Source: Fuerstiella sp. | GTDB taxonomy: Bacteria; Planctomycetota; Planctomycetia; Planctomycetales; Planctomycetaceae | DNA: 64,000 nucleotides | Assembly (NCBI GenBank): GCA_022447225.1 | Contig: JAKVAZ010000002.1 | Location: forward strand, 1 to 64,000 | Reading direction: 5' to 3' | In this document: piece after piece, positions 46,695 through 48,686 of the stretch | How the letters are laid out: each line of letters opens with the position of its first letter | How positions within the stretch are numbered: the first letter of the stretch is position 1 | Notes under the pieces: generated by a model | What the model was told of the DNA's origin: nothing | Databases searched by the model: none | The model's input: the letters and a program-made list of their open reading frames with translations, nothing else | Made by a program: the position numbers and the translations under genes

Positions 46695-48686
46695 ATGCCA
46701 AAATACAGAGACACACCCGATGAGATCGAAGGAATGCCCAGGGGGGTTCCCTACATCATTGGTAACGAAGCTGCTGAACGCTTCAGTTTCTATGGAATGA
46801 AGTCCATCCTGACCATTTTCATGGTCGACTATCTGCACCGGATGGGCAATGTCTATGTCGCCCAGGGGATGTCAAACGCTGAAGCCACTGAGCATTATCA
46901 CACGTTCACAGCACTGGTGTACTTCTTCCCGCTGGCCGGGGCTTTGCTGTCGGACACGATTCTGGGAAAATATCGCACGATCTTCTGGCTGTCACTGGTC
47001 TACTGCGGCGGCCATGCCGCGTTGGCCATGATGGGCGTGCCGATCATCACGGCTGGTATGTGGCTGGTGGTCGGACTGTGGCTGATCTCCGTCGGATCAG
47101 GGGGCATCAAACCCTGTGTTTCGGCTCATGTGGGAGACCAGTTTGGAAGTTCCAATAAGCACCTCCTCAGTAAGGTCTATCAGTGGTTCTATTTCAGCAT
47201 TAACTTTGGATCATTCATTTCGACGCTGCTGACTCCGTGGCTGCTGGAGCACTATGGACCTCACTGGGCCTTCGGTATTCCAGGTGTACTGATGGCAGCC
47301 GCGACACTACTGTTCTGGATGGGGCGACGCGTCTTTATCCACATCCCACCGGCCGGAAAAAGTTTTCTAACGGAGACATTCAGCTGGACCGGAATCTCTG
47401 CTGTGCTGAAACTCAGCCTGATCTTTTCTTTCGTGGCTGTTTTCTGGGCGTTATTTGACCAGACCGGATCGTCATGGGTACTGCAGGCCAGGGATTTAAA
47501 CCGGTACTGGCTGGGGCGAGAATGGCTGGCATCTCAAATTCAGGCAGTCAATCCCATCCTGGTGCTGATCCTGATTCCACTTTTTCAGTTTGTGATCTAT
47601 CCATCCATTGACCGAGTTTTTCGACTGACGCCAATTCGGAAAATTGGTATTGGACTGTTCGTTATGGTTGCCGGCTTCGCGATTATTGCAGTGCTGCAGG
47701 AACGCATTGATGCGGGATCACAACCATCGATCTCCTGGCAGTTCCTTGCCTACGGCGTGCTGACGGCCTCGGAGGTGATGGTGTCGATCACATGTCTGGA
47801 ATTTGCCTACACTCAGGCACCCAGAACAATGAAATCTCTGGTGATGGCAGTTTTTCTGGCTTCTGTGTCACTGGGAAACGTCTTCACTGCCGTCGTTAAT
47901 AATTATATTCAGACACCGGCCGTGTCGTCTCTGGCCGCAGGACTCAACGTTCGGTTACTCAATCCAGGGGACGTCATCGAATCTTCGCAGTGGAATGCGA
48001 CCTGGGAAATCGATGGCAAACAGCAAACCATTCAGGAAGCCGGAGCAGACGGACAGGCGGGTACCGGTGACGATATCACACTGGTGTTGGATGAGAACGG
48101 ACAACTTGTTTCGGTCCGCACGTCTTCGACTACCGCATTTGAAGAAGCTGCTGAAAAGATCGAAGCGATGTTTTTTGCCGACTTGGCCAATGATAGTGAA
48201 AAGAAACTTCCAACTGTCGAAGCCGGAAACAAAGAATTACAGTCGGCAACAGACAGTTTTGGTAACCCGATCCGTTACAGACTTCAGTCGCGGGACAGTT
48301 ATCAGCTGATTTCAGTCGGAGCTGACGGGCAGGATGAAACCCGGTGGGACATGATTTTGACCGGATCCGTGAGTCGCAGAAAAGCAGACACTGTTGATCC
48401 AGCCGGCGATGCAATTCCGTATTTTAACTGGCTGGAACGCAAAACGATCGAACAGAAGTCGGGAGGCGACAAATCAAAAGTACCCGGGATTCAGCAGGAA
48501 ATTCTGAACAGTCGCGGTGGTGGAGGAGAAACCAGTTTTTCCAGAGATTTCACGGTGGGTGGGCGAACACTTTTGGAAAGAGCCGATTATTTCTGGTTTT
48601 GGACCGGGTGCATCCTGGCGACGGCAGTCCTGTTTATTCCTGTTGGTCTGTTGTATAAAGAAAAGACATTCATTCAGGGCGAGTAG
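46695..48686 (+). CDS. POT-family proton/peptide transporter with GspG-like periplasmic insertion
   Basis: 663 residues. MFS transporter of the proton-dependent oligopeptide family: [27 protein letters not shown] contains the ExxERF motif, and [17 protein letters not shown] and the long set of helices to about residue 415 fit. Normal members have 450-500 residues and end after helix 14. Here about 210 extra residues (about 420-630) precede the last helix ([23 protein letters not shown]). That insert contains [13 protein letters not shown]...[11 protein letters not shown], closely like the C-terminal Ca-binding end of type II secretion pseudopilin GspG, plus an earlier similar loop, [12 protein letters not shown]. 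Substrate and role of the insertion unknown. Confidence 0.9.

Follow-up and report, generated by a model that had tools for sequence, protein, structure and literature searches.

The mammalian peptide transporters PepT1 and PepT2 bear an extracellular domain built from two Ig-like lobes, inserted between membrane helices TM9 and TM10 (PMC4597091). As far as the available passages of that paper go, Beale et al. (2015) attribute a large extracellular domain to the mammalian homologues only and not to the bacterial ones, call such an insertion in an MFS core highly unusual, and describe extra helices, HA-HB, in PepTSo (PMC4597091). A literature search limited to open-licence papers found none on a bacterial POT with such an outer domain.

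The second system of interest is the type II secretion pseudopilin GspG. This protein has a prepilin motif and an N-terminal membrane helix, and its head (3g20; XcpT, 2kep) presents, in order, a helix, an LPxxxxG helix, a DPWGNPxxY hairpin, and a calcium loop. The available passages of PMC3396595 give the PERCAL calcium motif as G-x-D-G-x-x-[GN]-[TN]-x-D-D, and list the Ca2+ ligands of 3g20: main chain of P114 and V119; side chains of D117, T122, and D125. (Another of these passages counts motif position 8 as a main-chain ligand.) In a PulG structure without calcium, the C-terminal region is misfolded, according to an excerpt of PMC6692295.

Here we describe a protein in which these two families meet. 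The window, the 64,000-nucleotide stretch of Fuerstiella sp. DNA analysed, encodes a POT-family transporter with a GspG-type head between TM11 and TM12. The fusion joins a known transporter family to a known domain at a new place, minus the filament part that defines the domain family. A pseudopilin head is shown outside a pilus, and a bacterial POT branch has an outer domain, unlike that of mammals in both origin and loop, which contrasts with the statement in the available text of Beale et al. (2015). Relatives bear other outer domains, among them an Ig-like one located in the loop that mammals use. Such proteins provide tractable bacterial systems in which to probe what outer domains do in peptide uptake.

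A peptide transporter with an outer domain

The open reading frame at 46695-48686 (+ strand, 663 residues) encodes a proton-coupled peptide importer of the POT/PTR2 family, with transport itself predicted from sequence and structural model. The Pfam profile PTR2 (PF00854) matches at 277.8 bits (E 1.8e-82; gathering cut-off, 27), and the closest solved proteins by sequence (phmmer, PDB) are the POTs 2xut (E 3.5e-101) and 6ei3 and mammalian PepT2. The full-length AlphaFold2 model, made from 73 sequences (pLDDT 90.3, pTM 0.91), has 12 membrane helices. Its best structural matches in Foldseek are 6ei3 (E 5.1e-23) and 4uvm (7.8e-23), and the matches listed are without exception either POT/SLC15 proteins or nitrate transporters from plants, which belong to this family too. 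The nearest solved transporters by sequence and fold are therefore PepTSo (2xut/4uvm) and 6ei3, both without a pseudopilin domain; residues ~210-260 of PepTSo have no counterpart in the window protein. The sequence ExxER on TM1 is a POT motif, and its residues E25, E28, and R29 are kept in at least 90% of the 73 sequences. Searched against its own genome, the transporter matches only itself; its nearest named relative among the best 80 of 337 loci, at 90% identity, comes from a Fuerstiella MAG (L054).

Rows of the POT family without an insert at this place have a TM11-TM12 loop of about 11-25 residues. In the window protein, 224 residues (405-628; 47907-48578, + strand) separate TM11 (377-404; 47823-47906) from TM12 (629-653; 48579-48653). 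The original prediction had put an insert of about 210 residues at 47940-48600, behind a thirteenth helix: its place between transporter helices stands, but the model has it between the eleventh and twelfth of 12, and the real span is slightly wider. MFS topology would make this loop periplasmic, and the insert extracytoplasmic.

Modelled alone, the insert reaches a pLDDT of 90.8 (AlphaFold2) and divides into three parts, all on the + strand: unit 1 (residues 427-475; 47973-48119), a beta-hairpin, loop, and strands (427-429, 434-440, 443-448, 461-465, and 471-475 in the model); unit 2 (476-560; 48120-48374), the GspG head without its N-terminal helix; and a tail (561-628; 48375-48578), comprising the W579 helix, a helix at 593-609, a strand at 614-622, and the pair GG622-623. 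The pseudopilin head accounts for only about 85 of the 224 insert residues; a partial duplicate precedes the head and a conserved tail follows it. Unit 1 duplicates part of the pseudopilin sheet, namely the hairpin-loop-strand portion of unit 2: HH-align of residues 405-476 with 477-566 gives 86.6% over 39 columns, a value reached by 0 of 200 shuffles. This unit is absent from five of 73 inserts (L084, L088, L127, L128, and L130). In the tail, W579 is present in 72 of 73, and G622 and G623 in all. Mean column identity in the 73-sequence alignments is 29% for the insert vs 51% for the whole protein. (Left out of these alignments were L082 and L114, with ambiguous residues; L132, whose contig ends in the insert; and L066, L083, L086, L099, and L118, with at least 85% insert identity.)

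Relationship to GspG and the predicted calcium loops

Residues 476-560 are homologous to the GspG head, detached from the pilin, and their structural identity is close to certain. The match to the C-terminal half of GspG that had first been noticed is thus true homology. The motif DSFGNPIRY (residues 520-528; 48252-48278, + strand), the equivalent of GspG DPWGNPxxY, and the two GxDG-type loops (542-552 and 450-460) are present in the insert as described, and Y528 is found in 73 of 73 inserts.

The profile evidence is weak for the single sequence and much stronger for the family. In Pfam, the window insert matches T2SSG (PF08334) at E 0.0019, with a score (18.6 bits) under the gathering cut-off of 21; against TIGR01710 it reaches 12.2 bits vs a cut-off of 88.85. 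Alone, it finds nothing in the PDB at E<=10 (phmmer). T2SSG matches at E<=0.01 are found for 17 of the 73 inserts, the window's included, the best at 3.1e-6. A profile of the 73 inserts has nine matches in the PDB at E<=10: five to GspG (3g20, 0.0052; 2kep, 0.007; 1t92, 0.084; two at 0.17-0.18), and four to SAGA-associated factor 73 (0.15-0.22). LPxxxxG followed by DPWGNPxxY...GxDG is collinear in the three GspG alignments shown (3g20, 2kep, and 1t92). In its own genome, the insert profile matches, besides itself, just three places at E<=1 (7.3e-4, 8.2e-4, and 0.087), which are exactly the three T2SSG genes that Pfam finds there. Other Pfam side matches were dropped: Qn_am_d_aIV and FlgE_D2, in two of 73 inserts each; and Y_Y_Y and BIg21, in one each; none is better than 0.0015.

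Profile-profile comparison contradicts a chance resemblance. Residues 477-566 align to 20 GspG proteins chosen by Pfam with 98.0% in HH-align (E 2e-13), vs at most 4.4% for 200 column shuffles and 5.2% for the reversed profile. It could be argued that insert and GspG share only a common calcium loop, since the GxDG loop is over-represented in bacteria (PMC3396595, in the passages available) and since the single-sequence T2SSG score lies beneath its cut-off. However, HH-align without the calcium hairpin still gives 94.1% (E 1.2e-7), the LPxxxxG and DPWGNPxxY motifs are collinear, and the folds agree, so that coincidence of motif is already contradicted and scarcely credible. (The helix and LPxxxxG alone give 12.9%.)

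The predicted structure also bears out the pseudopilin assignment. In VIA-align, the insert model superposes on E. coli (EHEC) GspG 3g20 at 2.3 A over 74 residues (Z 5.6); Z is 5.4 for 2kep, 4.9 for 9a1f, and 6.1 for 4noa, a minor pilin (5.3 A). Of the five top rows, only 2i52 (Z 5.8) is not a pilin. A Z of 5-6 is in the range about which that tool warns; such scores are weak alone, and their weight comes from agreement with the sequence result. Foldseek finds nothing for the insert at E<=0.001; among the matches listed, the sole pilin is at rank 41, with E 1.0.

The insert is thus an alpha/beta head of the GspG type, yet it scores below the curated GspG profiles and lacks the filament-forming helix. 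Unit 2 has the elements of the GspG head in the same order (helix, LPxxxxG helix, hairpin, calcium loop), but sits in a transporter, behind its own partial duplicate. The prepilin motif G[FMIAL]xxxE is absent from the insert, and the highest 19-residue hydropathy is 0.89, so there is no membrane helix. Therefore, the head presumably cannot be built into a pilus as pilins normally are.

Both GxDG loops, initially noted as calcium-type, resemble the known GspG calcium site and are likely calcium sites, with binding predicted from sequence. Loop 1 (residues 450-460; 48042-48074, + strand) matches the PERCAL motif exactly, and its ligand set D, T/S, D occurs in 37 of 73 inserts. Loop 2 (542-552; 48318-48350, + strand) is the GspG calcium loop, with G542 in 73 of 73. 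Alignment to D117, T122, and D125 of 3g20 predicts D544, T549, and D552 as its side-chain ligands; it keeps these, but deviates from the strict PERCAL motif at positions 7 and 10. In 68 of 73 inserts, loop 2 retains the D, T/S, D set; the exceptions are L106, L115, L116, L121, and L122. In four of these, all from Phycisphaerales (L115, L116, L121, and L122), the ligands are all or nearly all gone, a natural test of calcium's role.

Distribution and gene neighbourhood

The idea that the insert might be general in Planctomycetota did not hold; it is a trait of one subfamily, which reaches Verrucomicrobiota. Among 79 genomes (own included), 73 have a POT match, and in seven the match runs through the insert (G000, G001, G002, G006, G007, G013, and G043). 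In a phylum sample of 392 genomes, 22 have an insert-spanning match (own included; G394 ends at a contig end and G434 matches only from residue 260). Neither count leans towards insert-bearers. The best 80 of 337 loci (L053-L132) are biased towards them, because two of the six search patterns fall within the insert; by title these comprise 59 Planctomycetota, 17 Verrucomicrobiota, two Fidelibacterota, one Hydrogenedentota, and one Bacillota, some single records being possibly misbinned.

In a tree of the transporter core, all 30 insert rows fall on one side of a single branch (SH-aLRT 100). Hence, the insert marks one POT branch across Planctomycetota and Verrucomicrobiota, and it probably was gained once in the ancestry of that subfamily. 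(The tree is of a quick kind and unrooted, so it does not separate gain from loss; its 97 rows were thinned to 56, leaving out L049, L123, L127, L132, and near-copies, and the 24 rows labelled 'none' were scored on the TM11-TM12 loop alone.) Comparison with L054 gives omega values of 0.251 (insert), 0.195 (unit 2), and 0.049 (residues 1-404). The insert is therefore under purifying selection, though less constrained than the core.

Gene order around the transporter is a separate matter. Among 61 loci with at least 3.5 kb downstream, a secretin gene is next but one in 17, where the POT gene converges on type II secretion (T2SS) genes. Thirteen of these loci are named Phycisphaerales or Phycisphaerae, and four only Planctomycetota; secretin is missing in the other 44, seven of them Phycisphaerales or Phycisphaerae. 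At one locus (L201), Pfam names a secretin, T2SSK, a pilin-type gene, and T2SSG. Regions for control were scanned with purpose-built secretin and GspG profiles. Secretin was found in 0 of 14 wider insert-bearing regions (several surround places among the 61, and L235 overlaps L202); among 20 POT regions that lack the pseudopilin insert, one has it (G424, about 4.7 kb off). Because of these two counts, we take the gene order as a lineage trait and no evidence for a link. A T2SS connection drawn from gene order was accordingly rejected, as the arrangement is lineage-bound and present without the insert in G424. Also set aside was a GspG-profile match beside the POT of G013 (L226), which covers only the pilin N-terminal helix. 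T2SSG and secretin are encoded in 25 of 25 insert-bearing genomes, a count of insert-bearing genomes only, without a control set, and not used as support.

Two co-oriented neighbours recur across 72 loci: a DsbH-type thioredoxin protein at 26 and an asparaginase at 20, in every case in Phycisphaerae or in Planctomycetota of no named order; no protease is among the recurrent neighbours at these loci. In L071 (1039-6025, +) and L201 (3135-8022, +), asparaginase-like and DsbH-type thioredoxin genes lie upstream of the POT gene, with overlap or almost no gap. The DsbH-POT-T2SS arrangement is confined to one lineage, mostly Phycisphaerales, and often includes the asparaginase.

Outer domains and their possible role

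The window protein resembles PepT1 and PepT2 in having a large extracytoplasmic domain within the POT core. It differs in that their Ig-like lobes lie at TM9-TM10, whereas this insert lies at TM11-TM12 and matches pilins. (Pilins are the top VIA-align rows; an Ig fold is missing from that list, which cannot exclude such a fold.)

Other POTs of Planctomycetota carry extracytoplasmic inserts unrelated to the pseudopilin head. The POT of G011 (L200, 1815-2474, +; also L011) has PKD domains in the TM11-TM12 loop (PF22352, 3.8e-8; PF18911, 8e-7). Between TM9 and TM10, where the window protein has 26 residues, ten of 12 POT regions have 71 to 237, the TM11-TM12 loop being short (G012, G016, G009, G019, G249, G333, G438, G140, G321, and G424; loci L237-L245 and L222). 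The remaining two (L246 and L247) are without such an insert; 11 of the 12 were picked for broken matches, most near residue 340, and are no random sample. One of the nine scanned (L237-L245) has a Pfam name over the cut-off: G140 (L244), with bacterial Ig Big_9 in two stretches (5.1e-14) and Cadherin_5 (2.4e-7). This Big_9 insert shares both its loop and its kind of fold with the mammalian domain. By eye, the TM9-TM10 inserts of G012, G016, and G009 are discoidin-like; Pfam does not name them so. In the POT of G004 (L023), about 90 mostly hydrophobic residues occupy the TM11-TM12 loop, perhaps as extra membrane helices.

What might the head do? We propose that it serves the importer as a docking module. 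It would fold around Ca2+ and, anchored by both its ends in the C-terminal half of the transporter, could sit rigidly over the periplasmic face as a cap. Rigid placement is suggested by the model, because full-length pTM is 0.91 with the insert making up one third of the chain. The cap might then dock a partner at the importer, and docking would raise the local peptide supply; the likeliest partners are a protease that generates peptides or a protein that binds them. The analogy is with the unrelated Ig-like domain of PepT1 and PepT2, proposed to recruit trypsin. Binding-type domains have been gained repeatedly on the outer face, a pattern that fits an adaptor better than a component of the pump. 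The proposal as a whole, an importer with a detached pseudopilin head in its TM11-TM12 loop acting as a docking module, stands a little short of an even chance; the docking role itself, drawn by analogy, is tentative. Several points count against the proposal: the lack of a protease among the recurrent neighbours; an insert less conserved than the whole protein; the five of 73 inserts without the loop 2 ligands; the Foldseek null; the modest Z of 5-6 in VIA-align; and the lack of the insert in most POT-bearing relatives.

The main rival is a calcium-dependent lid or gate, in which the head, together with the W579 helix and the invariant glycine pair ahead of TM12, would control the periplasmic mouth, so that external Ca2+ tunes transport. 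Double attachment to the C-terminal half would suit a lid, as would the high conservation of the adjoining tail (W579 in 72 of 73; G622 and G623 in all) and the fixed pose that the high pTM suggests; however, insert-free POTs presumably transport without one, and we regard the lid as rather unlikely. Alternatively, the domain might be a tolerated passenger that entered once and has persisted with no function of its own. Faster evolution than the membrane core and the absence of unit 1 from five of 73 inserts agree with such a history, but omega (0.251 overall, 0.195 in unit 2) and retention of the ligand residues in 68 of 73 do not, and no loss was seen within the branch, in sampling that leans to insert-bearers; a mere passenger therefore seems improbable.

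The head might instead bind to the type II secretion machinery, so that peptides would be taken up next to where hydrolases are secreted. Its descent from a pseudopilin invites this idea, as do the presence of T2SSG and secretin in 25 of 25 insert-bearing genomes (without an insert-free control) and the one lineage in which the POT gene converges on T2SS genes, secretin being next but one in 17 of 61 loci. Nevertheless, the gene order is not tied to the insert (44 of 61 loci are without secretin; 0 of 14 vs one of 20 in the wider regions), and the helix with which pseudopilins pack into the pseudopilus is missing, which makes binding to the machine very unlikely.

Returning to docking, a broader reading is possible, though we hold it with some doubt: that POTs repeatedly and independently gained outer domains of varied descent that bring peptide producers to the importer, and that the GspG head, freed from pili, now serves as a calcium-built docking module that was also spliced into other envelope proteins. 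Independent gain would cover the pseudopilin head and PKD at TM11-TM12 and the bacterial Ig at TM9-TM10, all in Planctomycetota, and the Ig-like lobes of mammals.

In a set of 59 genomes, those loci outside POTs that match the insert profile and were read encode either pseudopilins with the N-terminal motif or proteins without it. Five loci from other Planctomycetota encode small membrane proteins that end in the head (L146, 1501-1779; L147 and L148, 1501-1722; L149, 1501-1839; L162, 1501-1767). They lack a prepilin motif and match the insert profile at E 1e-13 to 4e-7; L148 also matches T2SSG (0.0027, under the Pfam cut-off). Further head proteins without the N-terminal motif are L151 and L160, the latter lipoprotein-like. 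In G159, an 878-residue protein (L197, 387-3020, +) has a C-terminal GspG head (T2SSG, 5.6e-9), and ten further genomes with that family code have long frames (885-972 residues) that match T2SSG. Finally, a TraB/PrgY-like protein (L198, 605-1786, -; TraB, 26.2 bits, just below cut-off) contains an internal GspG head (T2SSG, 1.7e-5).
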